From positions 1 to 35,743 of IMG/VR virus record IMGVR_UViG_3300044675_008009: a DNA stretch of 35,743 nucleotides; one strand, 5' to 3'. Origin of the DNA: a virus. Below are positions 9,318 to 32,930 of the stretch, in pieces. The translations under genes and the position numbers were made by a program. Below the pieces are notes generated by a model. That model saw nothing but the letters and a program-made list of their open reading frames with translations. It was not told where the DNA came from and made no database searches. Position 1 is the first letter of the stretch. Each line of letters begins with the position of its first letter.

Positions 9318-9324
9318 TATCTAT

Positions 9325-9331
9325 ATAAATA
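9325..9331 (-). promoter_or_regulatory. TATTTAT box before the 550-aa gene
   Basis: The minus strand reads TATTTATA; 7 bases (ATAGATA) lie between the 7-mer and the ATG at 9317. It sits in the 15-base gap after the glycosyltransferase gene. Candidate late promoter core. Confidence 0.5.
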
Positions 9332-9332
9332 A

Positions 9333-10313: not shown

Positions 10314-10354
10314 AAAGGAAAATTAAGTCGTATTTTTCTAAAGTGAATTAAACT

Positions 10355-10362
10355 TATTTATA
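10355..10362 (-). promoter_or_regulatory. TATAAATA octamer upstream of the glycosyltransferase gene
   Basis: The octamer equals the T4 late promoter consensus and points toward the glycosyltransferase ATG 41 bases away. It overlaps the stop codon of the fibre gene. It is the only such copy I noticed in the coding orientation of a downstream gene, so it may be chance. Confidence 0.3.
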
Positions 10363-14612: not shown

Positions 14613-17599
14613 TATTGATTACAGTATATTTCGAAGTTTATTCCAACATTGATTTGAAGATCATCAAAATTTGGTAGACAGTTATTATTAAATATAATTA
14701 TTTCGTCTGTACTCTCGTCTATATTATAACCATAACCAGATGTTTGTAAACTTTGGAATGTAGTTGTTAACGCTGTTAACCATTGTTGAGAAGTAGGGTA
14801 TTGACCCGTACCAATTCCTTGATAGAACAAGTCTTCAGCAATTATATTTCCGTTTACTCTTATGTCAACATACCAACTACTAACGGTACTATTTAACTGA
14901 CAACTATTAATATTTACACCTTGGGAAATAAAAAATTCATTCATGGTAGTATTCAGTAGAACTCCAAAGTTTGTTATATTAGGATCTGTATTCCATGGGT
15001 AAATAACACAAGTTACTTGTTGTACAGGACAGTCCAACACATAAAGTTGAGTTGTTAAACTACAAGGTTTACAAGGAATTGGAATAAACTTACAACCTTC
15101 TTGTCTTCTCCATACAAATTTTTGTCTATGAAAAATCGAGTTTTCCAATCTAACTCCTGTGTTCCATATAGTAGTTGCAGGAACCATCTGTTCAACCATT
15201 CTGATCCAATAATCGCCCATCCCATTTACAAAATCTATCATGGTTTGGTATGTGTAATTATTATTTGGTATTCCAGCATTAGTTAAAGACTCCAAATAAC
15301 TCCAATAAATTGATTGTAGAGTTGGGTAACCTCCCGTTTTTCCATCCGTAATAAATTGACGGTTGCGAGTGTTAATCATGTTTCTCCAAAATGTTTGAGC
15401 AAATTCAAAGAATGTTTTTGTTTTTGGTTTTGGTACTATAGTTGTCCAATCTACACCACCTAATTTTGGATATGGGTTTGGTATATTACATGGTGAAGGT
15501 GGTGTGTAAAATAATCCTTGTTCAGGAATTGGGTAATTAGTATCTCGGGACATCGACCATACATCATAAACTAAACCTTGAGCAGGATTCATCATGATGT
15601 CAACATTTTTAACATTTAACACTAAACATTCTTCACCAACACTATAATAAGCATTGAAGTTTCCTTCAAAACTACTTCTTAAAAATGGTGTGGTATCTAC
15701 CCAACTTTTTTTGTTTTCGGCTACTTTTCTTAATTTGAATCCTAAATCCATGTAAGGAAAATATCTGTATCTATACAAATATTCTTCTCCATAGTTGAAT
15801 GGTAATAATTGTGTTTGATAGTTAGGGTTGTTACCTGTAAAAACTTGATTTGTTGGGACAGCAAACTCAGGCATTCTATGTTGTGGTGTTGATTCAAACC
15901 ATCCACCTCCTATTTGGAAAAAATAACTCTCTGACGGGATTGGCATTCTTGGACATCCAAACTCGTCAACAGGAAAATCGTTTCTTGTCGCTAATACAGT
16001 CAAGTTTGTTGAAGAAGTTGTAAATCCTGTATACTGCATACCCTGTATTGAAAATACATTATTTGTCTGAAGTACTGGTATTTGTTGAAGTACCACTCCT
16101 GTACTAATTTCTGCAAACTGTTGATCAAACTCAAACATGTTAATTCTTTGGTCTGCAACATAAACATATTCATTAAAATCAATCAAAGCTTCAGGTGCTC
16201 CTGCCATTCTCAATAGACACTCAATAGATTTTCTTGTACCTTTCGATTTGAAAAGGTAGGCAGAGTTCAGAATTAAATTTCTGTAGAACTGATAGTTGAT
16301 CTCTTCAGGTGTTGGTCCTAATTGTAGACCAGGAAATGTGTTGGGTTGTGTTGTAAATACAGCTTGTAAAAGTTCTTCTTGAGATATAGGAGAAAAGTTT
16401 GTAACCCAACCTAATGTTTGCGCTAAGTTTTTTAATAACTGTGAAGGTATATCATTTTGTACTGTGTAGTGTATGCTATTGATGTTACCCAAAGCACCTA
16501 TGAATGCCTTCGTTTCATCAAAGCTTCTACCATAAAGTTGTATTAACTTTTCAAACTTTTGATCAGGAGTATCAAATTCTTTTAAAGCACCAGTGGTTAA
16601 AAATCTTGAAATAATATTTGTGCTGTACCCATCTAAATTAACCGCAAAATCATTTATTTGAGCCAAGTAATTGTCAAATGATACTGAACTAATATCTAAA
16701 TTCCATAATCCAACTCTTGGCCAAGTTACTAATTCTGTTGTTAAAATATATGAACCGTCTTCTTGTTCTCTTGGAACAGTAAATTGTGCAGTATAAGGGG
16801 GATTAATTTGTCTATTTAAAAGAAATTTTTCAACAGGATCAAAATCTAAATTGAAAACTTTGTTACTTTCGAAATCATTTGGTCTAATAACTAAATAATC
16901 ACTCGATGTTTGAGCACCACTAAAAGGATCACCATCAACTATTAGTTTTAATGTTGTTGACGAACTGTTTGTTGGATATAAATAATTTACAGGATATTGA
17001 GATCCATTTACATATAATACATATTTTTTGTAAAACAACTTCATGTTTCTCAACGGCGAAACTTGCATTTCATTAAATAACATATTTGTTTCTGCACTTT
17101 CAGAGTAATCTAGTTCAAAAGGGTTTTGTATGGATTCAAGATATATTTCAAAAGTTGTATCATTTTCTACTGAATCGTATTGTATATTAATAGCGGTTGG
17201 TTGAGTTATAAATTTTGGTGTTTTGGAATTAATCTCTAAACCACCAGGAAAATAATTTATAATTTTGGTTATAGATACTGAAAATCTCTTAACCAAAGAA
17301 CCATATTGTGTAAAGTTTGTAACCTGAGATAAATCGTAATTTGGATAAACTCTATAATTATTCGCCAGTATGTCAGCTGCCTCGGCGTTTGTTTCTACAT
17401 TAATACTCTCAAGATTGATTGGGTCGGAAAAACTACCTATAGTAAAAGTCCTATTTTGTTTTTCACTTATACCAGTTGTGAACTGAAAATTTGCTTGCGT
17501 TAGACCTCCACCTGTAACTAACTGTACACCAACTAAATTATTGGAGAAGCTGTTAGCAGCACTACTTTGAGGTGGGCAAGTAAATTTATTTGTCGCCAT
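14612..17599 (-). CDS. Baseplate wedge protein with P2 gpI/T4 gp7-like motif, 995 aa
   Basis: The region around residues 445-475 reads [20 protein letters not shown] and continues [15 protein letters not shown] similar stretch (Tyr-Leu-x-x-x-KGT followed by an amphipathic helix) is typical of phage tail protein gpI of P2, whose equivalent in T4 is part of gp7 and in type VI secretion is TssG. Together with gp25- and gp6-type proteins this would complete the conserved wedge core. The preceding 440 residues are beta-rich, and the C-terminal 250 residues include a Cys-rich patch ([11 protein letters not shown]). The gene overlaps both neighbours by TAATG (17599 and 14612), so it is translated with the 301-aa and 972-aa proteins. 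The wedge role is well supported by context; the exact T4 equivalence is inferred. Confidence 0.68.
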
Positions 17600-18504
17600 T
17601 AAGCCGTTATGTTATTAAATGCCTTTGAGAAGTCGATATTTTCACCACGATCTTGTCTAACTTCATAAAGAAGAGTATTGAACTGATCTTTAATCTCGTA
17701 CAAGTTGTACTGTTTGTAAATGTTGTTATTAGCATCGTAGATAGTGTAAATACCATCTTCCATAGATTTAGTTTGATTACCATAAAGTGCAATTGCAAGT
17801 GTTGAAATATCTTGATCGACTATTTCTATTTCCGTTGTTATTGGATTAAAATATGTGTTTGTTATGATAATACTTTGGTTTGGTTGTCCAATGTATGGAG
17901 TCGCACTTGGTTTGTTTGTAGGCGAAGATGAAGGTGAAACTGTGCAAAAAAGTAAGTTCGTTGCACCTTGCACATACCTATATCTAATTGATTTCTGAAT
18001 AGTGTTGGTAAGATTTTGTACTACAGGTTCACAATAAAATGAAGAAGTTATGATTCTAAAAAAGTTTGGTATTTTTGTCCCATCAGAATTCAAGTACTCC
18101 ACTCTAAACCCTACCAACCCTTGATTAACAAATTTATTTTGATATTCGGCGGGTACATTGTTCAAGTCTATAACAATACCCTTAACATTTGGGAGTGAAG
18201 ATAAAACACCGCAGTCAGTAATTATAGTTCTAATCTCTGCTGGTCTTATCATTAAAGTATAGATACCTAACTTAGTGAACTGATCTGCAGGAAGTTTCAA
18301 ATTATAAAGACCACCCAAAATTTCTACTGAACTTCCTCCAGTATCTTGGTTATTGAAGTAAGGTCTCAAAACATCTTGAGCATCAAGTGTTGTAAGGGTA
18401 AAGTTTTGAGTATCGTCTCTAGACTCAGTATATACCATTACTATCTGTACATCCTCGGGACTAACATCTGCCGGTCTTATCGTTCCGTAATTTCCTGTTG
18501 CCAT
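17599..18504 (-). CDS. Baseplate-region structural protein, 301 aa, unrecognised
   Basis: The product begins MATGNYGTIRPADVSPEDVQ, has a mixed alpha/beta first half and a short Ser/Pro/Thr linker (SPSSSPTNKPSATP, about residues 190-203) before a C-terminal domain that ends with an amphipathic segment. No named family is recognised. Its length is near that of T4 gp8 (334 aa), a wedge protein, but I see no sequence motif that proves this. The stop overlaps the gpI-like gene start (TAATG). A TATTTAT box lies 20 bases before the ATG, so a promoter may begin the downstream part of the baseplate operon here. The placement among wedge genes makes a virion role likely. Confidence 0.65.
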   Translation of the reverse strand: MATGNYGTIRPADVSPEDVQIVMVYTESRDDTQNFTLTTLDAQDVLRPYFNNQDTGGSSVEILGGLYNLKLPADQFTKLGIYTLMIRPAEIRTIITDCGVLSSLPNVKGIVIDLNNVPAEYQNKFVNQGLVGFRVEYLNSDGTKIPNFFRIITSSFYCEPVVQNLTNTIQKSIRYRYVQGATNLLFCTVSPSSSPTNKPSATPYIGQPNQSIIITNTYFNPITTEIEIVDQDISTLAIALYGNQTKSMEDGIYTIYDANNNIYKQYNLYEIKDQFNTLLYEVRQDRGENIDFSKAFNNITA

Positions 18505-18532: not shown

Positions 18533-19708
18533 TTATGTGGACACTTTTTCAATAATAAAATATTTGTATCCGTATTTTCCTAAATCTCCCACATTATCAA
18601 CCTCACCTAACCTCATCACATTTTCCAAAGGAGAATTTTTACCTCTCTCAATAAAAACATTGGTAACTACTTCAAGTTGATCGACGACATTTATGAGAGC
18701 CTCATTTTTGGTTATGGCCGTCAATTCTATTTCACCTGGTACTAAACCGTATGAATCAACAAAATATATTGTGTAATTTTCATAATCATGATAAATAACC
18801 CCATTAATTGTATAAGCGGTATATGTGTTTGTAATGTCAGGACCGTAAAAAGTTCCAACAACACCTGTTTGACCTGTTACCTGTATACCCAATTTGAACT
18901 TACCATCGTACAAATTGGTTTTTGGGCCAAATTGAGTTAAATCATTGACAGTTGATTCTGTTATTCCTGTAACAGGAAAAGGGACTGTGGTGTAATTATA
19001 AGAATAATAATCTGTGACATTAGTATTAGAATCTCCTGTAAAAATATAATCATAACTTATCGGTGTTGCCGACCAACTAGCTCCAGCAGGATAAAATGTT
19101 AAGTTACCTAGAGGATTGTTTATGGTAACAGCACTATATGGGGTAGTGATTGTTTTTTGTACTGTTGATATTCCCCAAGGTGAGTTTGCGGTTAGTGTTA
19201 TTACATAATTAGTATTCGCAGTTGGGTAGGTGTGTGTGACAGGCGTAATCCCTAATAAGACTTGTGTTGGTGTTCCATCCCCCCAATCCAATGTGTAAGT
19301 CACTAATTGTAAAAACTTAATAAACTCTAAATCTGATGTATTATAAAACTTAAAAGTATATGGGTTAATAGTGTCTGCGGTAACTATAAAATTGTTCAAA
19401 ACATCTAACTGAACCACTAAACCGTCAAAAGGTGTATAATATCCCAAATCAACCGCAGATTCAGTAATCATAATGTTAACTGATAATCCCGTAAGAAATG
19501 ATGTACCACCTGTGTTTCCACTTAACAAATAAGACATAGGTAAATAAACACCTGTTGTACCTGTAGTTGTTGCACTTATTGTAGTGGCAGTCAAACAACA
19601 CGGATCAATAATTGTAGTAACATCAGTTTCGCCAGTATATGGAACAAAAACTAAATCACTTTTGATGTTCTCAGGTGATATAACAAATTTATATTCTTGT
19701 AATTCCAT
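18533..19708 (-). CDS. Baseplate-region protein with PKD domain, 391 aa
   Basis: A PKD-type beta-sandwich is visible at about residues 135-190: YTLDWGDGTPTQV is the hallmark WGDG motif, followed by VTHTYPTANTNYVITLTAN, the usual HTYP..G-Y-V-LT pattern. PKD domains mediate protein or carbohydrate contacts in surface proteins. Flanking regions are Thr/Gly-rich beta structure. The last 50 residues (VFIERGKNSPLENVMRLGEV, then YGYKYFIIEK) look compact and conserved and may dock onto the baseplate. It is translated with the 268-aa gene upstream through a TAATG overlap at 19708. It is therefore probably a virion protein that carries an adhesive domain on the baseplate. PKD is confident; the rest is not. 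Confidence 0.75.
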   Translation of the reverse strand: MELQEYKFVISPENIKSDLVFVPYTGETDVTTIIDPCCLTATTISATTTGTTGVYLPMSYLLSGNTGGTSFLTGLSVNIMITESAVDLGYYTPFDGLVVQLDVLNNFIVTADTINPYTFKFYNTSDLEFIKFLQLVTYTLDWGDGTPTQVLLGITPVTHTYPTANTNYVITLTANSPWGISTVQKTITTPYSAVTINNPLGNLTFYPAGASWSATPISYDYIFTGDSNTNVTDYYSYNYTTVPFPVTGITESTVNDLTQFGPKTNLYDGKFKLGIQVTGQTGVVGTFYGPDITNTYTAYTINGVIYHDYENYTIYFVDSYGLVPGEIELTAITKNEALINVVDQLEVVTNVFIERGKNSPLENVMRLGEVDNVGDLGKYGYKYFIIEKVST

Positions 19709-20514
19709 TATGGGTTAACATATTCATACCAAGTTATCGGTGTTAACAAATCTCCAACTCTAAGATTGGTTGATGTTGAAAACACTTCGTAAGTTTTTGT
19801 ATTATAATCTAAGTCTACTCTATAGTAATTGTATTGTGAATGATCGTAATTAAATTTATCAGGAGTTAGAAGGTCTTGTCTTGTATTTGTCATCTGTTTG
19901 AAGACTCCTGTTATTGCATCAAAAAATTGCGCGGACATGTAAAAAGTATTAATGTCTATAATTTCTCTACTTCTCAACCAATAGATATAGTAACCCTCTT
20001 TATCATTACCTATGGAATCCAAAACCATGTTAGGTTTTTTTATTTCTATTGGTGGAAGTGTTGGTGATAAACTAGCTGTTTGTGTTAAACCTTGTTGTAC
20101 GGGTAATATGATTGAAACAAATAATTGGCGAGTTGCATCATCATCAGTATCGTATAAATCTAATTTGAAAAAAGAATTAGTGAAAGATTTAGAAAAATAA
20201 TAAACATCAGTAACTGAAAATCCGTTGTTGAGATAGTTTACAGTCCAGTTACCAACTGTGTTTGCGGTGATTGGTTGTGAATAATCATAAAAATTAAAAA
20301 CATAATTTATTTCTGTATTTATGTTTGGAAATATATTATGTGCAAATCTTATAATTTCGAAATCTTGAGGTGAACCAATAACCTCTTTAACGGCTTCAAC
20401 TTCATATACTTGAATGCTATCGTCTCTTCCCATAAAGTCCCATTGCATGTTAATTGGTATATTAACAAACTTATCAATGTCATCTTTAACTATTTTAATT
20501 CGTGTAAAATCCAT
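19708..20514 (-). CDS. Baseplate-region structural protein, 268 aa, unrecognised
   Basis: The product begins MDFTRIKIVKDDIDKFVNIP and contains a Pro/Ser/Thr turn (LSPTLPPIEIKKP) near residue 150 and an aromatic stretch (YYIYWLRSREIIDINTFYMS) near 170-190. It is beta-rich, soluble and lacks known motifs. The stop overlaps the PKD protein start (TAATG) and the ATG immediately follows the stop of the 631-aa gene, so three structural genes are made as one set. No family can be named. A wedge or peripheral baseplate component is the best inference from its place between gp6-type and gpI-type genes. Confidence 0.65.
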   Translation of the reverse strand: MDFTRIKIVKDDIDKFVNIPINMQWDFMGRDDSIQVYEVEAVKEVIGSPQDFEIIRFAHNIFPNINTEINYVFNFYDYSQPITANTVGNWTVNYLNNGFSVTDVYYFSKSFTNSFFKLDLYDTDDDATRQLFVSIILPVQQGLTQTASLSPTLPPIEIKKPNMVLDSIGNDKEGYYIYWLRSREIIDINTFYMSAQFFDAITGVFKQMTNTRQDLLTPDKFNYDHSQYNYYRVDLDYNTKTYEVFSTSTNLRVGDLLTPITWYEYVNP

Positions 20515-22410
20515 CTATTGATTATTTGGGTTTTGATTATTTGGGTTAGTTCCTATGTCAAACAATATCTGACCTACATCACAACCATCACTAGAAGGTG
20601 CCGCAATAACAGTCAAATCAACAGGTACTTTACCACCTTGATAAAGACTTAATTCATTTGGATTTGTTGGTGTTGCGTAATCGCTTGCTGTATTATAGTT
20701 TTCAGGTGTGATTCTAAAAATTGTGTCAACAAAAGGATAGTGAGCATTATTCAAAAACGGATAGTCAAGACCAACACCATCACCACTGATGAACCCATAA
20801 GGATAAAGGTCTCTCCATCTAAAAGAAGAATTCAATGTTGAGTAATAAGCATACTCAGGAAGATCAACAATATTCTGATCGGTTGATTCTTCAATGTACT
20901 CAGAAAATTCTCTTATCCCTATTTGGTTGTGGGGTTGGTAAAAATAACCAAACAAATTTGTTGGGTTTAAAGTTGGAAAATTTAAACTAAACCAATTGTT
21001 GTTATATGTAATTTTGTGTTGATAAACGGAAAGTGTTCTTTCTATTTGTTCAAAATTATTCCATTCACAAAAATCTCCATCTATAGTATCACCTGAAGTT
21101 AACAAATCATTATAAAAAAAAGGACCTTGATTTACTAAAGATGTATATTGAGATTGATTTATTGTTGTATTAGAATCTAAATTGTTTTGATCCCACCATA
21201 CTTGTGGTTTTCCAACATCTAAATATGTGTTAAATTCCCAACCTTGTTTCAACTTTTGTGTCCAACCAAAATAACCTCTCCAAATTGTTGTAAAGTATAA
21301 TTTACTGATTGGTCTGTTTTGATTATCTAATAAATTTCTTAAATTGACATCACAATTGAATGACAATGTATAAGATCTTGATCCTTCTTTTACAGAAGTT
21401 CTTTTAACTTGATTAGGTGTTAGAGGTTTGATTTCACACTTTGTTTTGTCATTATAAACATTTTTTTCATATCCCGCATTAACTAATACCGCACAATCTG
21501 AATCTGTAAGTATTCGATGTCTTCTTACATAGTAAGTACTTATTGTATCGTTTAAATTTGTTTTATCTAAAACTCTTCTAAATGTTCCTTGATTTAGAGT
21601 CACAAATGTTGTTCCAGTATATCCCACATTTTGGATACTAAATATGTATTCTTCGGATCCTGATCCACCATCTCCCAAACCATCCACTTGAAATATTGAG
21701 TTGTTGTTGTAGTTTATAGATAACAAAACAAACTGTCCTACACTTAAATTGTGTTTGATTGGACACTTAAAAGTAATTTGATTAGTTATGAGTTCACTAC
21801 CCCTTACAATGTAAAAAGGTATTCCATCAGATGCAATCCAATTCCAAGATATTTGAGTTTGTGGTTCGACGGCATACATTTTTTTATTCGGGTCATTCGA
21901 ATAAGCATAACTTAAGTAATGTGACCAGTTGTAAGTAGTTGCACTAACTGATTTAAAATCTAAATGTCTTCCTGACCCTATCGTATACCCTTGTACAGAA
22001 TTGTCGGTTCTTATGAAATCAAATTCAGGGTACTGAGGAAAACCATCCCAAGGTACTGTTTGATCTGTTGGTTGTGGGGGAACAGATGGTACATTACCTG
22101 TGGGATAATATGAAATTGCATTTTGGAGAGCGTTAGTATAATATAGGTTGTCTCTATAAGGTACATATGTTGTTGATCCAGTCAAAGCATTCTCAAATAA
22201 AATTGTAAACTTTGTAACAGGTCTAAAAATCGTTGATTGTTGTCTTTCTTCATCGAACACTTCAAGTAAACTAAGATCAGTTGTGCGATCAAATTCAACC
22301 AATTCTTTCATTGATTGTTTCAAAGGTACATTAATAAACTGATCACTCAAAGGTGCCGATTTGTACCTTTGTGTTGATTCAATTATTCTTGTTGATGGAT
22401 CTACATTCAT
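20515..22410 (-). CDS. Baseplate-region structural protein, 631 aa, unrecognised
   Basis: The product begins MNVDPSTRIIESTQRYKSAP. It has an internal segment (KCPIKHNLSVGQFVLLSINY, about residues 215-234) that looks like a small beta-barrel, a long Tyr/Asn/Trp-rich middle, and a C-terminal region containing FRITPENYN. It ends in an exact repeat NPNNQNPNNQ encoded by a 15-bp tandem duplication. No named family is recognised. It abuts the 1874-aa gene upstream (1-base gap) and the 268-aa gene downstream (no gap). The size and position between gp6-type and gpI-type wedge genes suggest a major baseplate component. Confidence 0.65.
   Translation of the reverse strand: MNVDPSTRIIESTQRYKSAPLSDQFINVPLKQSMKELVEFDRTTDLSLLEVFDEERQQSTIFRPVTKFTILFENALTGSTTYVPYRDNLYYTNALQNAISYYPTGNVPSVPPQPTDQTVPWDGFPQYPEFDFIRTDNSVQGYTIGSGRHLDFKSVSATTYNWSHYLSYAYSNDPNKKMYAVEPQTQISWNWIASDGIPFYIVRGSELITNQITFKCPIKHNLSVGQFVLLSINYNNNSIFQVDGLGDGGSGSEEYIFSIQNVGYTGTTFVTLNQGTFRRVLDKTNLNDTISTYYVRRHRILTDSDCAVLVNAGYEKNVYNDKTKCEIKPLTPNQVKRTSVKEGSRSYTLSFNCDVNLRNLLDNQNRPISKLYFTTIWRGYFGWTQKLKQGWEFNTYLDVGKPQVWWDQNNLDSNTTINQSQYTSLVNQGPFFYNDLLTSGDTIDGDFCEWNNFEQIERTLSVYQHKITYNNNWFSLNFPTLNPTNLFGYFYQPHNQIGIREFSEYIEESTDQNIVDLPEYAYYSTLNSSFRWRDLYPYGFISGDGVGLDYPFLNNAHYPFVDTIFRITPENYNTASDYATPTNPNELSLYQGGKVPVDLTVIAAPSSDGCDVGQILFDIGTNPNNQNPNNQ
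20518..20547 (-). repeat. 15-bp tandem duplication at the 3' end of the 631-aa gene
   Basis: TTGATTATTTGGGTT occurs twice in a row on the plus strand, giving two NPNNQ units just before the stop codon. Probably replication slippage in a tolerant C-terminus. Confidence 0.8.
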
Positions 22411-22411
22411 A

Positions 22412-25400
22412 TTATAATTCGTTCACAACATATAGTTTAAAGAATCTGTCGATCGCAGTCTTACCGTTATTTAACCCAAAATAGAAATGATATGGTGCAC
22501 CAACTATAATAGAATCCAAGAACGATGTGCTTGGTGATCCTTGTGTCACATTTGAGGATGAGTACTGTGGTACACCATTTACATAATTACTTATGAAACC
22601 GTTTTGAGTTGTTGTCGTCCTATATTTTTCACCACCAGTTACGAAATCTAAATCTTGATACTTTTTGAAAAAGAATCCCTGTGAGTTATTATTAGGTGTT
22701 AAAACCGGATATGTCGTGGTGAACCAATTGTTATCCTCCGAACCAAATATGTTTGGGGTTCCTGCATATACAGTTGGTATTCTAACTTGCCATCTATAAT
22801 GCGGGACTTCCTGAGATTTAGGATATCCAAAGTCTTCCTCAATTAGTGGGTTAAAATTGTAAGTTTCGATTCCCGGAGACATTATTTTTCTATAGTAAGT
22901 TTCATCGTCATTTACTTGGAAAAACAATCCCATAATAGGTTTGATTTCATCTCCGGAGAGTGTTGTTGTTCCGTTATTGTTATCACCAAAATAAATGTAA
23001 ACATTAGGGTTAGGTTGTGGTAAGTTTTCTGTAATGAATGGTAAAACTTTCCATTCAGAATTAATTGATAACATCTGAGCCCAATCACCATCTATACGAT
23101 AACCACCTCTTGTACTATTGAAGAATTGAATTATTCCTTTTCCTTCGGAACTATCACCTCCGTTTGTTATTGGTATAATTCTTTGTCTAACACCTTCATT
23201 TAATATTCTCGACAAAAACCCTAATTGGATGATATCTGAGTTATCTTGGTATGATGTAGTTTTGAGTTGGTTAGCATAATAAGATCCAAATCCATCTTCA
23301 CCAGATGAACAACAAATTTGATTAATAAAATAATCTCTTGGTCCTAAATCAGTAATGGTTGTTGGAAATTGTATTTGTTTTACATTATATCCAAAACCTG
23401 GAAAAGTTACTCCAACGGCATTAGGATTTATTTGTGGTGAGTCTTTACCAATAAACCTTTCGGTATTTTGATCCCAAGGAGATGATCTATAAAAGAAGAC
23501 ATTTGTTATGTCGTTGAACATAATCACATCATCACAATAATCGTAAACCGGATTTGCAAATGCGTCAAAGGTTGTTTGTTTATTAAAGTTAAACATATAT
23601 AAGACACCATTGATCCAGTTGTTTTGGAATACTTGTCCAAATACTCCTCTACAAGCGGCAAAGTTCATTGTAAATCTAACCTTCCATTCTAAAAATAATC
23701 TAGCATCCGCACCATATTCAAATAAATAAGTCTTGTTCAATAAACAATAACATCCATTTATCATTCTGTTTTCAGGAATTGAGCATTGACCTGTGGGTAA
23801 TACACCAACATTACCACCTGAACCTGAGTAACATTCCAAAGGTACCATACCTTCACAACTTAATGTTTCGGTAAGTGCTTGTGTTGTTGGGTCATCATCT
23901 TGACTATCACCACTATAAAGATCACCACCTGCGGTAATAAATGGATAAGCTGCGCCTCCCGATGGTGAGAATACCGCAAAGTTATCATTTTGATGTAAGG
24001 CAAATCCTGTGTTAGTTCCTGAAGCACCATTTTGTACTGTTGTAGAAGTTGGTAATCGATCACTTCTCATAACAATATTTGTTGAGTTTGAGAAGTTAAC
24101 ACCGTTGAGTGAGTATCTATAATAGGCCGGTGAATAAAGTGCGGTCAAATTACCCGCAGAATTGATTCCTGTGTAAAAAGTCGATCCTGTGTTAAAATAT
24201 TCCATATTTTGACAATCCTGATCACAAGATGGTGAACTGTTGTTATTTCCAGTTTGTAACAACATTTGATAACTATTAGTTAAATTAGTGTTAACCCATC
24301 TAATATATGTTCCTCCAACCATGTAAGCCGACTGATTCAGAGGGAGGGATCGGTTAGAAGGATTTGTTAAAATTTGGTTACTTGCTAAGTTGTTTACTTG
24401 CCATTGTCCTGGATATGGATTATAAGTACTAGAGATAGAATCGTCAGTACTTGCATAGTAATAAGGGTAATCAGAAGTAAATCCACTATAATTTCCTGGT
24501 GTAGAATCAATTGTAAATGTGAATGATGGGAAATACAAATTATTTAAAACATTTGTAAGTGTGTTGTGTGTAAGTGGTTTGTATCCCGTACCTGTTGTTG
24601 GTTGGATTGGTCTGTTGAGGTAATAACTTCCACTGATTATTGGACCTTGTCCATATGACTTACCAAACAATCTTGATAAATCATATTGAATTGTTGGTTG
24701 TTTTGCCGTGTGTGGATCGACTCCTCTTACAAAGATACAGATTTCAAAGTTTTGAAAGTCTGTCATTGTTGTAATAATGTTGTTATATGTCAGATTTGAA
24801 ACACCACAAAAATTTACACCAATTGTAACATCATGTAACAAATATGTAGAAGGGAAAAATCCAGTATTGCCGGTATTTGAATTGGCAATAAATTCATTAA
24901 AAGTAACCCCAGTAACTAATTGGAAATATTCCATATCAGTAGGATATTGGAGGTACGATTGCTCCGCACTTGGATTACCAATCACAGGTTGTTGTGAAAC
25001 TTGAGGTGAAACAACGATTATATTAGCAGCTGGTGAAGCATAGGATGTTGGTGAGTTCGGACTAGCATAAGGCACTTGTACGGGAATTGTGTTTCCTGTA
25101 ATTGTATAACCTGTTACAGCGTTATTTTGAAATTGGTTGGTGGTTGCACCTGTTAGGTTTGTTAATCTATTTACAGGTGTTGCAAGAGTTGGGTTTACAT
25201 AATTTGGGTTCTGAAAAGTAATTAAATTTCCAACACCTAAACTTGATGTAGTACCTTTATTCATTAGAATTACAAGAACTTGATCTTCATATGCTGTTGA
25301 CCCTAAAGTTGGATTTACAGTTGTTTTAATTCTGTTTACCCCTGTTCCATTTGACGCCGATGGTGAACTTTTGAAATATTTATCTCGAGTATTAAATTCG

Positions 25401-28036
25401 TTTAATTTTTGACTTAAGGTAACACTTTTTGGCCAAGCGAATCCCCTCAAATCTGTAATTGAGTTTAAATAAAGTGGTGCCCTTCTTTCTCCCACAAATA
25501 AGAAAGGTTGGGGAGCTTTTAAGAGATATTGTGGGTTTGGTATGTATTTGTTAGGTGATGTAGATGTTAAAACATCATATCCCGAAAATAACCTTCTGAA
25601 ATCTAATGCCGCCCTAACCGCAACCGATGAATCTAAACCGTTTTGTTGTCCCATCAAAGTACCCAAACTATCACAAGGGTGATATGGTCCTTCATTATCT
25701 TCATTGACCGTTAGATTTGGGTGTTCGACATTATATGACCCTGAATAGTTTACAGGGGCAACAGCAGTCTTAGGTATCGATAAAACTTCTTCACCACCTT
25801 GTGAAGCGGTACCGGCTTCATTAATTTGTTGGTTTATAGAACTTTCATCAAAATCATCATCCATTTCGGCACTTTTACAATCACAATCACAACTTGTACA
25901 ATCAGGATATGAAATCATAGGAAGTCCAATTCTTGGAAAACCTTTTATTCGTCTTGCAGCTACAATGGCAACTGCGGTGAATGCAAGGGCCAAACCTAAT
26001 TTAAATGTCGCAATCGCAACTTGACCGATCCCCCATAGAATCAACCTGACCGCTTCTAAAATGTTACCAACATTCACCACAGGACCAGCTAAAGATGCAC
26101 TTATGATTCCTGATGCAACATTAATCGCGGCTGCAGCTGTCTGAATTGATTCAATTAATGCAACTGTTGCCTCATATGAAAAATAAATTCCTAAAGCTAT
26201 AAGAACATACTTCAGAAGTGGCCACATAAATGAAATAAAGTGGGCTACAAATAATAATGTTAAGATTGGGAATGTAAGTATGTTTATAAGGATGTTGAAA
26301 ACAAAGAAAATAAAATCAAAATTTCTTATAACATCATTAACAGGAAATGTATTTACAGTTGACTTACAACTTCTGTTGTCAATTTCTTTTATACCTAAAT
26401 GTCTTGCTCTTCCTATACCGTTTTTGTATCTATCTAAGAACATTGCAGTCGTATACACTTTATTGTACTTGAACTCATAGAAAGTGTCCTTACAATCGAT
26501 AGCGTCTTGTGCGTTTGCATAATCATCCCAATCCGTACTGAACGCATATGATTTATAAACATCAAACAAGTCTTGAGGAACAAAAGTAAAATCAATATTC
26601 TGTGGTTGTTGATCATCCAAAGGACTTGCAACTATCAGTAATGTGCCTCCCGCACTAAAATCAATAGACTCAGGAGATCCAAAGTATTGATTCCCATTTA
26701 CAAAAATGGTGTAACTTTCAACATTGTAGAATACAGGACTTATTAACCCTCCAGAAGTTATTAACACAGTTTGACCTGATATTGAACCTGCAGGAATTTG
26801 GGGATAATTATATGTGTATGATTGAGTTGGGTCGAATGGATCGTTTCCTGAATTGGTCCATCCATACTCTTTAATATTTGGCACTAAAAAATCAGCTCTT
26901 AAGAAACTACCTTGTAATCCTTGTGATGTTTGCCATCTAAACTTGAATCTATACTTTCCTTTTGTTGGTACACCTACCGCAGGATCGGCAGATAAAACTT
27001 GTTGTCCAAACTCATTTGTTGTAACATAATCCAAGTTCATTGGTACATTAACCAAATAAGTTCCGTCACCATCAATAACTTTACCCGCTTGTTCTATATT
27101 CCATCTTTCAAGGATTGGTAAACCATTTGTATCTGAAAAAATTGTTTGTCTTATACCTTGTATTTCTCCTTGTCCAGCAATCAACTCACAAAGATTACCT
27201 GTATTATTTTTTGGTTTACATTTTACTTTCAGAGCATCATCATCAGTAGTTGAGATTATTGATCCCATGAAGATTGCTGTAGGTTGGATATTAATATTTG
27301 CTTGTTTTGTTAAATCAAAGTCAACTCTTGTAATTCCAATTTGACAAAGATCCTCACTTCCCCAAAACGGTCTAACATTTACAGTATAAATTAGGTTTTT
27401 GATTTGTGGTAACTCTCTTAAATTTGTAGAAGATTTGAATCTTGCTCCGTCGACTTGAGTTTCGGTTGCCAAACCTTGTTGTATTAAATCTTGTGGTGAC
27501 AACGAAAAACATCCAATGTCTGATAAGTCAACATCCATTACGATAGTTTGTTCACCAGTTGGTACCCCAAAAATCATAAAGTCTCCACTCTCATTTGTGG
27601 TCACTGTAAATCTATAATACTTGTCATATACCTCAATATATGATTCATCCATTAGAACATCCCCTTTGTTAGGAAATGAACCTGTGGACACATGTCCATT
27701 ATATGAGGGTAGTTTTGGGAGTAAATTATATCGGTAACCCTCTTCAGTGGTGTCATTAATAGTTTTGAACGGGTATATTTCTGAAATAACCGGATCTAAC
27801 TCATCTGTGTCAGTCAAAGGAATAAAAATAGACACCTTAGCATTTGGTAATCCAAAACCTCCATTGACAAATACACGACCCGTAACAACACCGTAATCAG
27901 CACAAAATCGAGTGTAAATATTATTAGCAAGAATCTTTAGAGACAATATCTCAAGTTGTTCCCAGTCTTGTTCTAAATTTACATTTATGTATTTGTCGAC
28001 ACCAACCTGTGTCCTTATTCTATATGATTTAGACAT
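22412..28036 (-). CDS. Giant baseplate-operon protein with CnaB-like domain and central membrane-like helices, 1874 aa
   Basis: This is the largest gene of the window. Residues about 48-180 resemble a carboxypeptidase-regulatory/CnaB-like beta domain (VVTGRVFVNGGFGLPNAKVS, later NESGDFMIFGVPTGEQT). Residues about 570-700 are strongly hydrophobic with several candidate membrane helices (FVFNILINILTFPILTLLFV; PLLKYVLIALGIYFSY; LALAFTAVAIVAA), ended by a basic ARRIKG and a Cys-rich CTSCDCDCK near 712-720 and an acidic patch. The remaining 1150 residues are Asn/Thr/Tyr-rich beta structure with scattered cysteines. It follows the gp6-type gene in the position gp7 holds in T4, but shows no gp7 motif. 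A TATTTAT box lies 17 bases before the ATG. It could contact or cross the host membrane during assembly or infection. Function is unknown. Confidence 0.7.
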   Translation of the reverse strand: MSKSYRIRTQVGVDKYINVNLEQDWEQLEILSLKILANNIYTRFCADYGVVTGRVFVNGGFGLPNAKVSIFIPLTDTDELDPVISEIYPFKTINDTTEEGYRYNLLPKLPSYNGHVSTGSFPNKGDVLMDESYIEVYDKYYRFTVTTNESGDFMIFGVPTGEQTIVMDVDLSDIGCFSLSPQDLIQQGLATETQVDGARFKSSTNLRELPQIKNLIYTVNVRPFWGSEDLCQIGITRVDFDLTKQANINIQPTAIFMGSIISTTDDDALKVKCKPKNNTGNLCELIAGQGEIQGIRQTIFSDTNGLPILERWNIEQAGKVIDGDGTYLVNVPMNLDYVTTNEFGQQVLSADPAVGVPTKGKYRFKFRWQTSQGLQGSFLRADFLVPNIKEYGWTNSGNDPFDPTQSYTYNYPQIPAGSISGQTVLITSGGLISPVFYNVESYTIFVNGNQYFGSPESIDFSAGGTLLIVASPLDDQQPQNIDFTFVPQDLFDVYKSYAFSTDWDDYANAQDAIDCKDTFYEFKYNKVYTTAMFLDRYKNGIGRARHLGIKEIDNRSCKSTVNTFPVNDVIRNFDFIFFVFNILINILTFPILTLLFVAHFISFMWPLLKYVLIALGIYFSYEATVALIESIQTAAAAINVASGIISASLAGPVVNVGNILEAVRLILWGIGQVAIATFKLGLALAFTAVAIVAARRIKGFPRIGLPMISYPDCTSCDCDCKSAEMDDDFDESSINQQINEAGTASQGGEEVLSIPKTAVAPVNYSGSYNVEHPNLTVNEDNEGPYHPCDSLGTLMGQQNGLDSSVAVRAALDFRRLFSGYDVLTSTSPNKYIPNPQYLLKAPQPFLFVGERRAPLYLNSITDLRGFAWPKSVTLSQKLNEFNTRDKYFKSSPSASNGTGVNRIKTTVNPTLGSTAYEDQVLVILMNKGTTSSLGVGNLITFQNPNYVNPTLATPVNRLTNLTGATTNQFQNNAVTGYTITGNTIPVQVPYASPNSPTSYASPAANIIVVSPQVSQQPVIGNPSAEQSYLQYPTDMEYFQLVTGVTFNEFIANSNTGNTGFFPSTYLLHDVTIGVNFCGVSNLTYNNIITTMTDFQNFEICIFVRGVDPHTAKQPTIQYDLSRLFGKSYGQGPIISGSYYLNRPIQPTTGTGYKPLTHNTLTNVLNNLYFPSFTFTIDSTPGNYSGFTSDYPYYYASTDDSISSTYNPYPGQWQVNNLASNQILTNPSNRSLPLNQSAYMVGGTYIRWVNTNLTNSYQMLLQTGNNNSSPSCDQDCQNMEYFNTGSTFYTGINSAGNLTALYSPAYYRYSLNGVNFSNSTNIVMRSDRLPTSTTVQNGASGTNTGFALHQNDNFAVFSPSGGAAYPFITAGGDLYSGDSQDDDPTTQALTETLSCEGMVPLECYSGSGGNVGVLPTGQCSIPENRMINGCYCLLNKTYLFEYGADARLFLEWKVRFTMNFAACRGVFGQVFQNNWINGVLYMFNFNKQTTFDAFANPVYDYCDDVIMFNDITNVFFYRSSPWDQNTERFIGKDSPQINPNAVGVTFPGFGYNVKQIQFPTTITDLGPRDYFINQICCSSGEDGFGSYYANQLKTTSYQDNSDIIQLGFLSRILNEGVRQRIIPITNGGDSSEGKGIIQFFNSTRGGYRIDGDWAQMLSINSEWKVLPFITENLPQPNPNVYIYFGDNNNGTTTLSGDEIKPIMGLFFQVNDDETYYRKIMSPGIETYNFNPLIEEDFGYPKSQEVPHYRWQVRIPTVYAGTPNIFGSEDNNWFTTTYPVLTPNNNSQGFFFKKYQDLDFVTGGEKYRTTTTQNGFISNYVNGVPQYSSSNVTQGSPSTSFLDSIIVGAPYHFYFGLNNGKTAIDRFFKLYVVNEL

Positions 28037-28113: not shown

Positions 28114-29955
28114 CTAAGAGAAATTAACAGACTTAAGATTAAGAACTCTAATATTAATGTCTTTGTTTGGATATCTAACTTGGTAGATCTGAGTCGGTGT
28201 TGCAAATAAAGTGTCTGCAACTGGTTGGATTTGTCGTGTTACGGGGTCTAGATAACTCATTGAGGTTTGGGTTGATGAGTATTGACCTCCAACTTGATTA
28301 AAAAATAAAACATCTGATACTGAAACAATTCCGTTTTCAGACTGTATGAGTCTTCTTAACTCAGATATATTAACATTCTGTCCTAAATTTCTAACTAAAG
28401 GATTGAAGAAGTCTGTAACTATTTCGATTGTTTTTGCAATTATTGCTCCTTGGTTCTGACTGTTGTCAAGTACAACATCAACAGTTACGGCCAAGTCTAT
28501 TGTTTCAGCCGCCTCTATTGATATATAATCATTTATCATTCTAAAGTTAGAAAGGTAATTTGCAACATTTTGTTTCAATGTGTTCGAAACTACATTAGTT
28601 AAAACCCCACTCGAATCGTAAGACAACATCTTAATTCTTATTTTGTTGTTTTCTTCGGTTATGGCAACTTTAGCAGGTGCACCAAACTGAGCGGGCATAG
28701 TTCTTAAAATTGAATTGTAGTCATTTACAGTTACTGCTCTGTTTTGTGCCGCAAAATTAAAAGAGACCATGTTTCTAACATCTTCGGTTGTTGGTGGATT
28801 AGCTCCTCCGATTGCGGCAGTGACATTATTACATTGAAGGCTGTTGGTCACACTTACATTTGCACTTGCTGATGGACCATTTACTGCGAATGAAACAGTG
28901 CCAATTTGATTGATTGTATTGATACCAACATTACTTGATAATCCACCCCCTATTCTGTACTGAACAAATAAAGTTGTGTTAGGTGAAAGAGCCGCCCCCA
29001 TTGCATAGTTATTTGTATAACGACTAAGATCAAAACCTTTACCGTCTCTTGCGAATTCTTTTAACTGTTCATCAGCCGAAATATTACCACCACCAAAAGT
29101 TATTTTACAAAAACCTTGTGGTGTATATTCAGAAATAAACTTATTCGATGTTGTTATATATACCCCCACTTTGATACCAGGTTGGTCTGATGTTTTAGTT
29201 GGGTCTTCAACAAAAACTCTATCTTGTACTAAAGCATCTACCTCAAACCATCTATCAGGTCCTAAAGTAATAAAGTCTTGTGGGTTTGGTATTGTTGAAT
29301 ACTGTGTACCCGATTTTAATAAAACACTTGTAATACCTAAAACATTTTTTTCAGGTAAAAATAATTCCAAGTAAGGTTTACTATCGTTTGGTGTTATTAC
29401 TCTTTTGAATACTTTTGTAATTCCATTCACAACTACTTCTCTTTTTGTAATTGTGTAATTTACTAACTTACCACTAGCATCGAAGTTTGGTGTTTTTATT
29501 CTATTGGGTGATCCTTCAGCGTTAATTGGTGATGCAAAATCAATATCATAAACAGTTTCGAAAGGTTGTCCCCCACCATTAACTTGAGATCCTCTTCTCA
29601 ATATTCCACAATATCTTAAGTCTTCTCTATCACCAAAAGCAGGAACTGTAATTGAGAAGTCAACTAATGCAACTGAAGGTCTTTGACCTGGTACTTTTAA
29701 ACCGTAGGTTCTTGCAATATTGTAAACAGAATTTTTTTGTTGTGCAAACTGTAAAACAGTTTCTTGGATACTTCTATCAATTTGATAATTTAAGTTATCT
29801 GTTACCGCAGCGTTCAAATCTAACATTACAGAAAAAATACCTGCATCGTTAAAGTTTTGAACTAAGTCAGGATAGTAAGTTCTTGTAAAATTAATTAACT
29901 CAGTTCTAACTCCTTGAAAGTCCCTTACTGTATAGGAAATCTTTTTTTCTGCCAT
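28114..29955 (-). CDS. Baseplate wedge protein, T4 gp6/P2 gpJ-like, 613 aa
   Basis: The N-terminus follows the gp6 pattern: YTVRDFQGVRTELINFTRTY, then YPDLVQNFNDAGIFSVMLDL and a TDNLNYQIDRSIQE segment leading to ARTYGLKVPG. This is the helical part that in T4 gp6 dimerises to form the inner baseplate ring. The middle carries the beta-rich Baseplate_J type domain; the C-terminus (NVNISELRRLIQSENGIVSV) matches the usual alpha/beta end of gp6/gpJ proteins. The length is close to T4 gp6 (660 aa). It follows the gp25-type gene by 6 bases, the same order as in many contractile tail systems. Identification is strong by motif and synteny. Confidence 0.9.
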   Translation of the reverse strand: MAEKKISYTVRDFQGVRTELINFTRTYYPDLVQNFNDAGIFSVMLDLNAAVTDNLNYQIDRSIQETVLQFAQQKNSVYNIARTYGLKVPGQRPSVALVDFSITVPAFGDREDLRYCGILRRGSQVNGGGQPFETVYDIDFASPINAEGSPNRIKTPNFDASGKLVNYTITKREVVVNGITKVFKRVITPNDSKPYLELFLPEKNVLGITSVLLKSGTQYSTIPNPQDFITLGPDRWFEVDALVQDRVFVEDPTKTSDQPGIKVGVYITTSNKFISEYTPQGFCKITFGGGNISADEQLKEFARDGKGFDLSRYTNNYAMGAALSPNTTLFVQYRIGGGLSSNVGINTINQIGTVSFAVNGPSASANVSVTNSLQCNNVTAAIGGANPPTTEDVRNMVSFNFAAQNRAVTVNDYNSILRTMPAQFGAPAKVAITEENNKIRIKMLSYDSSGVLTNVVSNTLKQNVANYLSNFRMINDYISIEAAETIDLAVTVDVVLDNSQNQGAIIAKTIEIVTDFFNPLVRNLGQNVNISELRRLIQSENGIVSVSDVLFFNQVGGQYSSTQTSMSYLDPVTRQIQPVADTLFATPTQIYQVRYPNKDINIRVLNLKSVNFS

Positions 29956-29961
29956 ATATCA

Positions 29962-30420
29962 TTAAATATTAAGTATTATAAAATCTTGAGATTCAAAAGC
30001 TGAGTCTGTAATTCTGTAGTCAATTTTTATTTTGGCGGTATGTTCTAATGTTGCAATATTAGTAACTGTGAATTCTCTTTCTCCATTCTTGTTAATTGTA
30101 TAACCTTTGTCTTCTAATCCCATAGAGGCATCTTCGACTGTTATATTAGTGACTTGTAAATTTGGCATATAGTTTCTTACAGTATCTCTGATTTCATTTT
30201 CTATGTCAGAAAATGTTGGTCCATCTAATGGTTCAAATATATATTCATATAGTCTTGTACCAAAATCAGGTAAAAAATATCTACTACCTTTTCTTGTTAA
30301 TAATAAGTGCACAAGATTTGCCCTAATCTCCCCTTCGGTACTATTAGTAACATCGAGATATCTTCCTGTGAAAGAATCTACAAAAGGAAAAGCAATTCCA
30401 TAAGTTATACCATTAGCCAT
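29962..30420 (-). CDS. Baseplate wedge protein, T4 gp25/P2 gpW-like, 152 aa
   Basis: The signature of the GPW/gp25 family is seen at about residues 33-70: RANLVHLLLTRKGSRYFLPD, then FGTRLYEYIFEPLD, followed by an amphipathic helix (IENEIRDTVRNYMP). The family was once described as lysozyme-like but acts structurally as part of the wedge core that binds the sheath and gp6/gp7; type VI TssE is a relative. The C-terminal 50 residues finish a beta-sheet ending DFIILNI. It is the first gene of the baseplate operon. A TATTTAT box lies 7 bases before the ATG, right after the region of the nrdA terminator. Confidence 0.93.
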   Translation of the reverse strand: MANGITYGIAFPFVDSFTGRYLDVTNSTEGEIRANLVHLLLTRKGSRYFLPDFGTRLYEYIFEPLDGPTFSDIENEIRDTVRNYMPNLQVTNITVEDASMGLEDKGYTINKNGEREFTVTNIATLEHTAKIKIDYRITDSAFESQDFIILNI

Positions 30421-30490: not shown

Positions 30491-32920
30491 TTAGGAAGAA
30501 CACCCAAAACATTCAAAATCAGAATCTTCTGGTCTTGGTGGTAAATTCAAGTGAGAATAATCAACTTTTGGAGGTTCGGGTGTTGTTTTAGGTTTTTCTC
30601 TTTTTGACATGTCGAGTGCCAAATGTTTAGCTCCTGTTGAAATTGCCTTTGTTCTAACATAATAACAAAGAGTTTTTAATCCTTTTTCCCAAGAATAAAA
30701 ATGTGATGAAGTAATCTTTGATAATGTTGGATTACCCATATAAATGTTCATTGATTGAGATTGATCAACAAATGGTGCTCTGTCCGCGGCCATGTCGATT
30801 AGCTCTCTTTGAGATATTTCCCAAATAGTTTTGTACTTAGGAAGTAAGTGTTCAATTCTTTTAACTTTTTTATTATAGTTTTTATCTTCAGGGTCTAAAT
30901 AATTATTGAAGTTAATATTTTGAATTGATCCTTCATTTAAAATGATTTCATTTTTTAAATCCTCACACCAAATTCCAATTTTTTCAAAGTCATAAATTAA
31001 GTACTTATTTACAATCATAATTTCACCACCAACAACTCTCCTATTAAAAATTGCGGAGTGAGCTGGTTCCGTCATTTCGTATGAACCTGTGATTTTAGCA
31101 GAAGACGCAACAGGCATTTGTGCTGTGAACAATGAGTTACAAACACCATACTCAATAACGCTTTTCTTTAGTTTTGCCCAATCCCACATTCCTGAAAGTT
31201 GTGATTCATCTAATCCCCACATATCAAATTGGAATGCTCCTTCTGACATAGGTGACCCTTTAAAATAGGTATAAGGTACTCGACCACCTTTAATACAAAG
31301 TTGATTACTTTCATATATTGCGGCGTAGTAAATAGTTTCAAAAATATCTTTGTTTAATTTACGAGCTTCGTCTGATGTAAAAATATAGTCCATTAAATAG
31401 AATACATCTGCCAAACCTTGAGTACCGATCGCAATTGCTCTTTGTTCAAAACCACCTTTTTTTCCTTTACTAGTTGAGTAGTTGTTAATATCGATAACTT
31501 TATTTAGCGAACGAACAACTTTTCTAACTTCACTAAATAAAAGTTCAAAATCAAACTTACCTGATTTAATAAAGTTTTTCAAAACCATCGAAGATAAGGT
31601 ACAAATTGCGGTTGTGGATTCATCTGTATATTGATATATTTCGTTACACAAATTAGATTGTTTTATCACCCCAATATTTTGATGATTTGATTTTTTGTTT
31701 GCGTTATCTTTAGAACATAAATAAGGAACTCCAGTTTCAACTTGAGACTCTACTATTTTAGTCCAAATATCTTGTGCTTTGACTTTTTTACCTAAACCGA
31801 TTGATACCGCTTGGTTATATACCATCTCGTACTCATCACCATAACATTCTTGTAGTGGTTTCAATCCGGCTTTTACAATATCATTAGGACAAAATAAATA
31901 CCAATCTGCATTATTTTTAACTGCCCGCATAAAGTTATCGGGTATCCAAAGAGCGGTAAACAAATCACGAGCTCTAAGTTCTTCTGCACCTGTATTCTTT
32001 TTTATGTCTAACAAATCAAAAATGTCTTTATGCCAAGGCTCAAGATAAATCGCAGCACTACCAGGTCTTCTACCTTGTTGGTTAAAAAATCTTAAAGACT
32101 CATTTACAATTTTTAAATATTTTAACAATCCGCCAGCATATCCACCTGAAGTTGTAATTCTACTTTCTTTACTACGAATATTAGACAATGATAATCCAAT
32201 ACCTGCAGCATCAGATGAAAATGTTGAGATATCATTTAAAGTATCCAATAGTCCTTTTCTTGAATCTGAGTTGTTATAATGAAGTACACAAGAAGCCAAC
32301 TGTGGAACTTTTGTACCAGCGTTGATCATGATTGGTGTTGCCTTAGAAATCAATTGATTTGAAAGGGATTGGTAATATTCAAGTGCGTCTGTAATATTTG
32401 TTGTAACCCACAAAGCAACTCTCATATACATATGTTGTGGTCTTTCAATTACTTTGCCGTTTGGTTTTTTTAACAGGTACATTTCTTGTAATGATCTCCA
32501 AGCAAAATAATCAAAGTTGTAATCATTATCATGATTGATTGCAACATCAATTGTATCTTCACCATACTCTTTTATCACTTCTATTAATTTTTCATTAATG
32601 ATACCATCTTTATAAAGTTCCATCATAGTCTCTGAAAAACTATCTTTGGTTTCTTTATGATATGATGATATAGCAACTGAAGATGCTAATCTTGAATAGT
32701 CGTGATGACTACCCGTATAAGAAGCCGCTATTTCATAAACTAATTTATCTAGTTCTTTTGTGGTTACTTCACCTTCTGTTGGTACTGAAGTAATAACTTT
32801 AATAAAAATCTCATCCGAGTTTACATTTAAACCTTTTGCCGATCTTTTAACTCGGTTGTATATTTTTTGTGGGTTGAAGGGTGCAGTCTCACCACCTCTT
32901 TTAATAATTTTTAGTGACAT
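30491..32920 (-). CDS. nrdA: Class Ia ribonucleotide reductase large subunit (NrdA), 809 aa
   Basis: The protein reduces ribonucleoside diphosphates to deoxy forms with NrdB. An N-terminal ATP-cone (about residues 1-90, starting MSLKIIKRGGETAPFNPQKI) indicates allosteric activity control. Core motifs include LASCVLHYNNSD (redox Cys near 209), SNLCNEIY (near 423, the Asn-x-Cys-x-Glu active site) and AICTLSSM (partner Cys near 440), plus SSAKITGSYEM near the C-terminal core. The end DFECFGCSS supplies the mobile Cys pair (804, 807) that is re-reduced by thioredoxin or glutaredoxin. The length is typical of class Ia. It lies 10 bases after nrdB and is closed by a strong terminator. All expected residues are present, so it should be active; it supplies dNTPs for phage replication. 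Confidence 0.96.
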   Translation of the reverse strand: MSLKIIKRGGETAPFNPQKIYNRVKRSAKGLNVNSDEIFIKVITSVPTEGEVTTKELDKLVYEIAASYTGSHHDYSRLASSVAISSYHKETKDSFSETMMELYKDGIINEKLIEVIKEYGEDTIDVAINHDNDYNFDYFAWRSLQEMYLLKKPNGKVIERPQHMYMRVALWVTTNITDALEYYQSLSNQLISKATPIMINAGTKVPQLASCVLHYNNSDSRKGLLDTLNDISTFSSDAAGIGLSLSNIRSKESRITTSGGYAGGLLKYLKIVNESLRFFNQQGRRPGSAAIYLEPWHKDIFDLLDIKKNTGAEELRARDLFTALWIPDNFMRAVKNNADWYLFCPNDIVKAGLKPLQECYGDEYEMVYNQAVSIGLGKKVKAQDIWTKIVESQVETGVPYLCSKDNANKKSNHQNIGVIKQSNLCNEIYQYTDESTTAICTLSSMVLKNFIKSGKFDFELLFSEVRKVVRSLNKVIDINNYSTSKGKKGGFEQRAIAIGTQGLADVFYLMDYIFTSDEARKLNKDIFETIYYAAIYESNQLCIKGGRVPYTYFKGSPMSEGAFQFDMWGLDESQLSGMWDWAKLKKSVIEYGVCNSLFTAQMPVASSAKITGSYEMTEPAHSAIFNRRVVGGEIMIVNKYLIYDFEKIGIWCEDLKNEIILNEGSIQNINFNNYLDPEDKNYNKKVKRIEHLLPKYKTIWEISQRELIDMAADRAPFVDQSQSMNIYMGNPTLSKITSSHFYSWEKGLKTLCYYVRTKAISTGAKHLALDMSKREKPKTTPEPPKVDYSHLNLPPRPEDSDFECFGCSS

Positions 32921-32930
32921 AATATATAAT

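Follow-up and report, generated by a model that had tools for sequence, protein, structure and literature searches.

A 1874 amino acid protein at the gp7 position of a phage baseplate operon carries a conserved hydrophobic block that may contact a membrane

The window analyzed here is the whole of a 35.7 kb virus record (35,743 nt), and its minus strand encodes a 1874 amino acid protein, termed here the giant protein. This protein occupies the T4 gp7 position in a baseplate operon and belongs to a family in which a long hydrophobic block in the middle of the chain and adjacent cysteine residues are conserved. We see an even chance that it serves as a wedge protein in the place of gp7 and contacts a membrane by means of a membrane-competent helical module, a reading drawn from sequence data. 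A buried packing core is the main alternative and is judged to be less probable.

Gene order in the baseplate operon

The genes of the operon in the window are as follows.

29962–30420, minus strand, gp25-like wedge protein (GPW_gp25, E 1.5e-12)
28114–29955, minus strand, gp6/Baseplate_J-like wedge protein (phrog_219, E 1.7e-19)
22412–28036, minus strand, giant protein, 1874 aa, start codon ATG at 28036, T4 gp7 position, uncharacterised family
20515–22410, minus strand, p631, 631 aa, invariably downstream of the giant gene, gp8 position
19708–20514, minus strand, p268, 268 aa, conserved downstream of the giant gene
18533–19708, minus strand, p391, 391 aa, conserved downstream of the giant gene
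17599–18504, minus strand, p301, 301 aa, conserved downstream of the giant gene
14612–17599, minus strand, p995, 995 aa, conserved downstream of the giant gene

The order gp25-gp6-giant-p631-p268-p391-p301-p995 is constant in 50 listed loci longer than 12 kb, within the reach of each contig. A sequence-only reading of this DNA had placed the giant gene in a baseplate operon directly after a gp6-type gene, and both placements hold. The p631 protein is without a database match. The giant protein is alone among the tail-operon members in having a long membrane-like block. Its open reading frame is intact across dozens of independent contigs (102 near-full-length open reading frames in one set and 201 in another), which rules out a gene fusion, a frameshift or an assembly artefact.

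In T4, gene 7, which encodes the wedge initiator, comes next after gp6 (GenBank AF158101). The giant gene shares this position, as it is directly downstream of gp6 and in an operon with gp25 (the T4 and S-SM2 gene orders were compared).

A similar short motif is found at the N-termini of the giant protein, p631 and p268, i.e. DKYINVNLEQDW, DQFINVPLKQSM and DKFVNIPINMQW, respectively. The resemblance is a tentative look-alike, and the motif is perhaps a common docking peptide. Elsewhere in the window, a 334 aa protein amid the tail genes (10358–11362) contains an extended array of collagen-like repeats of the GTSGSSGSAGSSG type. Mucin-like linkers of the TPTPTPT type are present in three proteins (3131–4417, 5135–7636 and 11694–14612), and the gene at 3131–4417 is on the strand opposite to nearly all others. 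The nrdA and nrdB genes (30491–33878) are flanked by the replicative helicase gene on one side and the baseplate genes on the other, a linkage that is kept in many relatives.

The giant protein family

Four scans of IMG/VR yielded several hundred relatives of the giant protein. Clustering gave 65 non-redundant near-full-length relatives and these, with the giant protein of the window, make up the 66 sequences compared below, which are 45%–100% identical to the window's protein. The family has at least 66 non-redundant members, all of which are on uncultured viral contigs. A tblastn search of 50,697 INPHARED phage records showed no relative in cultured phages at E ≤ 1e-5, and a permissive search of the same records gave just two matches, with E about 4. 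GTDB genomes were scanned as a possible clue to the host and no relative was confirmed in them. No Pfam or PHROGs family matched the giant protein at E ≤ 0.1, and PDB profile searches with the family were empty. The family is new to Pfam, PHROGs, PDB and INPHARED and is abundant in uncultured jumbo phages, as a structural component that has so far lacked annotation.

The hydrophobic block

The principal features of the giant protein, in order along the chain, are as follows.

27197–28036, minus strand, residues 1–280, highly conserved N-terminal part with a weak CnaB/transthyretin-like beta-sandwich signal
26366–26368, minus strand, Cys557, invariant in 66/66 sequences, 18 residues before the block
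26213–26314, minus strand, residues 575–608, first part of the block, essentially without D, E, K and R in 66 homologues
25952–26209, minus strand, residues 610–695, second part of the block, hydrophobicity kept and sequence not kept
25931–25951, minus strand, residues 696–702, conserved basic stretch [KR]xKxFPR at the end of the block
25877–25900, minus strand, residues 713–720, cysteine cluster C-x-x-C-x-C-x-C that follows the block
22415–25789, minus strand, residues 750–1874, C-terminal part, beta-rich in the model

The membrane propensity of the block was judged by two hydropathy scales, Kyte-Doolittle and Wimley-White. The block comprises residues 569–695 (bases about 26332–25952), close to the bases 25945–26325 at which a hydrophobic mid-protein region had been noticed earlier. 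Only here do Kyte-Doolittle means over 19 residues exceed 1.6; the maximum elsewhere in the protein is 1.13. The best 120 aa mean hydropathy of the giant protein is 1.60, versus 1.00 for the highest value among 2000 shuffled versions of the protein. Single 19-mers this hydropathic do arise in the shuffled sequences (maximum 2.9), and thus the block is non-random by virtue of its length and not of one peak.

On the Wimley-White scale, residues 575–593 (−16.0) and 594–612 (−12.9) alone clearly exceed everything outside of the block. Segments were counted relative to the best segment outside of the block, and a permissive cut-off was dropped because it gave many false segments there. By the relative count the 66 homologues have one to five non-overlapping segments, three being the commonest number. 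Four or so helices had been proposed from the sequence alone; their number is uncertain, and only the first two segments are clear in the giant protein itself. In all 66 homologues the best 19-mer of the block is more favorable to membrane insertion than any 19-mer outside of it, by at least 6.9 kcal/mol (median 9.9).

The first part of the block displays 65% identity and is never lost in the 66 homologues. H599 is invariant, while N581, N585, P590, W605 and P606 are near-invariant, and a conserved, near-invariant K609 follows directly. The hydrophobic moment in the mid-region of this part is 0.07–0.18, thus it is not an amphipathic helix, and an amphipathic coiled coil is disfavored for the block by the same low moment. 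Hydrophobic segments that are charge-free, conserved and long enough to span a bilayer, as would be expected of an integral membrane protein, are present.

The second part averages 35% identity to the window's sequence and has a mean Kyte-Doolittle value of 1.34. Equally variable regions of the protein outside of the block have mean hydropathies of −0.9 to 0.2. This part has been shortened in two lineages, to 15 residues in five sequences and to 39 residues in two, and the two lineages without most of it show no visible damage. As the second part is reduced in seven sequences, the minimal unit that is never lost is the first ~40 hydrophobic residues. Conservation of the block in homologues had been put forward as a check, and the outcome differs for the two halves: the second is dispensable, with two separate reductions, but the first has been retained in every sequence.

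Cysteines and basic flanks

The cysteine cluster CTSCDCDCK, which had been read at about 25880–25905, is at residues 713–721 (bases 25900–25874). C713, C716 and C718 are present in 66/66 homologues and C720 in 59/66. A basic flank of the block had also been noted and is indeed present, VAARRIKGFPRIG. Basic residues are kept before the block at R543, R545, K550, R555, K558 and R571, and after it at positions 696, 698 and 702. The invariant C557, C713, C716 and C718, on the two sides of the block, probably clamp it at its base, via zinc or another metal or via disulphides.

Predicted structure

An AlphaFold model of residues 1–1000 has a mean pLDDT of 65, with the linkers on either side of the block unresolved. 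The block is modeled as two long helices, residues 575–641 and 656–696, with pLDDT mostly about 67–77. The first of these is 67 residues in length, which exceeds the thickness of a bilayer. A CnaB-like N-terminal domain had been proposed. The best Foldseek matches of the N-terminal part do include the CnaB/transthyretin-like beta-sandwiches SpaA, BcpA and PA1324, but none is at E ≤ 0.001. The model of residues 690–1874 has a mean pLDDT of 71 and a confident beta-rich core at about residues 750–1360 (pLDDT mostly 75–96). It has no significant match in PDB or BFVD. With the two partial models, which are of moderate confidence, the best 50 Foldseek matches in PDB contain no gp7 chain and none at E ≤ 0.001.

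Histories of different segments of the protein

On an IQ-TREE tree of residues 1–560, the seven sequences with a short block require at least four changes, which would represent scattered reduction of the block. Trees of separate segments replace this with a single event in a five-member group, plus recombination. Segments 281–560, 500–610, 700–1000, 1001–1300 and 1301–1600 each group the short-block proteins of this five-member set in a single clade, and the same five are dispersed on the trees of residues 1–280 and 1601–1874. In this subgroup the ancestry of residues 1–280 differs from that of the middle of the protein. The disagreement of the segment trees indicates that the middle (about residues 281–1600, with the block) has been exchanged as a cassette between phages. 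Such exchange suits a modular structural protein, both ends of which would be docked in a conserved baseplate.

Relation to T4 gp7 and to other proteins at the gp7 position

A profile of the 66 giant sequences was compared with a five-member gp7 alignment by hhalign, with a probability of about 0 and an E-value of 0.84, and hmmsearch gave no significant match between the giant family and any gp7. The equivalence to gp7 suggested here is one of position, and membership in the gp7 family is not claimed.

T4 gp7 resembles the giant protein in that its gene is directly after gp6, the protein is large and it has a conserved, strongly hydrophobic segment. This segment, at residues 886–904, VGFGFIAITLLTMFINVGL, has a Kyte-Doolittle value of 2.07 and is kept in four distant relatives, as far as Vibrio phage K491 (31% identical over gp7). 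The surrounding residues 880–910 (AF158101 gene 7, 8061–11159) form an almost invariant hydrophobic stretch, RFVHPVGFGFIAITLLTMFINVGL. The GenBank note to T4 gp7 reads “C-terminus is predicted integral membrane domain”; no paper that follows up this prediction was found in the open-access literature searched. T4 gp7 has been solved within baseplate structures (PDB 5iv5, 5iv7 and 5hx2). Thus membrane-like segments are not unheard of at this position and may occupy a soluble particle. Unlike the giant protein, T4 gp7 is 1032 aa in length (versus 1874 aa), has a single short segment near the C-terminus in place of a 120-residue block in mid-protein, and displays no cysteine cluster by the hydrophobic segment within the stretch compared.

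The proteins right after gp6 in S-SM2 (4156 aa), PA5oct (3857 aa) and CBB (3340 aa) are larger than the giant protein, thus its size is not unusual for the gp7 position. Large proteins are also found near gp6, right after it or some genes further on, in immuto (1265 aa) and Mel-JY01 (1336 aa). Unlike the giant protein, none of these five has a comparable block, as their maximum Kyte-Doolittle values are 1.1–1.65, and none matches the giant protein in sequence. No homology to the giant protein was found in the gp7-position proteins of immuto, Mel-JY01, LR756508 and T4. It had been stated that membrane segments are normally absent from baseplate proteins; this needs qualification, as T4 gp7 has a membrane-like segment, while the S-SM2, PA5oct and CBB proteins at the gp7 position lack such a block. 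Mass spectrometry has detected the PA5oct protein in virions, according to an ESI-MS/MS annotation of its record.

Phage lineage and likely host

Three relatives that carry the giant gene, on contigs of 273–296 kb, encode a gp23-type capsid protein. The 272,576-base relative (L262) also encodes a portal protein, a contractile sheath and a DNA polymerase. The best reading is that the phages are uncultured, aquatic, contractile jumbo phages of the T4 superfamily. The capsid protein is closest to that of the uncultured huge phage LR756508, followed by the cultured Microcystis phage Mel-JY01 and Flavobacterium phage immuto, and the latter two are also the nearest cultured phages by gp6. The ribonucleotide reductase NrdA is closest to those of Cellulophaga and Tenacibaculum phages. 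The host is likely to be a member of the Bacteroidota. Moraphages are a published lineage of jumbo phages from freshwater, the hosts of which are predicted to be Bacteroidota (PMC12619734); likened by description, they are similar to the phages with the giant gene in size, habitat and gene set.

In L262, 2349 aa and 1699 aa proteins (99121–106170 and 106486–111585) are encoded near a 1116 aa sheath gene. Family matches of the two are absent or weak and they are candidates for a tape measure protein or for further components of the tail. Elsewhere in this genome, phrog_4200 gives a weak tape-measure match.

Possible function of the block

The giant protein would take the place of T4 gp7, the wedge initiator, in the baseplate of a contractile phage of the T4 superfamily. 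Its N-terminal beta-sandwich and large beta-rich C-terminal part would be soluble and structural, and a membrane-competent helical hairpin, of two long hydrophobic helices or of three to four short ones, would lie between them. The basic flanks would keep the two soluble halves from ending up on opposite sides of the membrane. While the tail is being assembled, the module may tether newly forming wedges to the inner membrane at its cytoplasmic face. Equally compatible is a module that stays covered in the virion until the baseplate has docked and then enters the outer membrane. Tethering during assembly needs no rearrangement and suits two basic flanks and an even number of helices. Both release of the block to form a pore in the inner membrane and anchoring of baseplate assembly at the membrane had been raised in the sequence-only reading. 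Anchoring fits better, and a baseplate-made pore in the inner membrane is the least probable of these versions, since in T4 contraction leaves the baseplate on the outer surface and it is the tube that extends to the inner membrane (T4 anatomy; PMC3004832).

A broader proposal, which we regard as doubtful, is that integral-membrane wedges are a property of the whole lineage of aquatic T4-superfamily jumbo phages, with one cysteine-clamped transmembrane hairpin per wedge. The baseplate may then be built on a host membrane, or may insert a ring of hairpins into it, which would make it the phage equivalent of injection systems that are anchored in membranes.

The alternative that survives best is a buried packing core, in which the helices of the six copies are packed together, or onto gp6 or the downstream proteins, with no contact with lipid. 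We hold this to be quite possible, if less probable than membrane contact. The first half of the block is conserved in sequence, and the 65% identity, H599 and N581/N585 exceed what a plain lipid anchor needs and thus suggest specific packing. T4 gp7 is part of solved baseplate structures despite a conserved segment with a Kyte-Doolittle value of about 2, and AlphaFold predicts long helices for the block. However ~34 charge-free and ~85 hydrophobicity-only residues far exceed the single 19-residue segment of T4, the variable second half is without sign of specific packing, the hydrophobic moment is low, and the proteins of S-SM2, PA5oct and CBB manage at the same position without a block. Contact with a membrane is favored because the block is several times longer than the T4 segment and its second half looks lipid-like and not packed. 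Even if the block is a buried core, the confident C-terminal prediction of the family matches nothing in PDB or BFVD.

It is improbable that the giant protein is a membrane-bound accessory outside of the virion, e.g. a scaffold for assembly that stays behind when the cell lyses, and that it shares no more than an operon with the baseplate proteins. Its standing as the one tail-operon member with such a block would agree with this, but its place between the wedge genes is invariant, its size and beta-rich content look structural, and the same-position protein of PA5oct is a virion component.

Least probable by a slight degree is a tape-measure-like pore, ejected from the baseplate on contraction as an inner-membrane channel for DNA or proteins: five transmembrane helices are predicted in the tape measure protein of diffocin, which is a proposed inner-membrane pore (PMC10996793), and an aquatic lineage of jumbo phages that looks related is without a recognised tape measure gene (PMC12619734), but the giant protein is gp7-positioned, 1874 aa in length and mostly beta-rich in its models, lacks an extended helical or coiled-coil make-up and a PHROG tape-measure match, wedge proteins are located outside of the tube, and the 272 kb relative has its weak phrog_4200 match elsewhere.

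Comparison with other membrane-linked contractile systems

The diffocin tape measure is like the giant protein in being a tail protein with several predicted transmembrane helices; it differs in its location inside the tube and in its gene position.

In the thylakoid contractile injection system, baseplate and fibre extensions anchor the machine in the membrane (PMC8894136). As proposed for the giant protein, parts attached to the baseplate have extensions that hold to a membrane, i.e. the Cis12 extension and the Cis13 transmembrane helix. However, as compared by description, it is a tail-fibre-like protein that penetrates the thylakoid membrane, and Cis12 has just a putative amphipathic helix. 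CisA of Streptomyces (PMC12237407) and TssN of the Bacteroidota type VI secretion system (PMC10781749) also link a contractile baseplate to a membrane, which is the role proposed for the giant protein; they are separate membrane proteins and not a module within a wedge protein.

If the giant protein does contact a membrane, the unexplained GenBank note on T4 gp7 becomes testable in a model phage. Contractile phages would then have membrane-anchored baseplates of their own, which would link their tails to the type VI and thylakoid injection systems.
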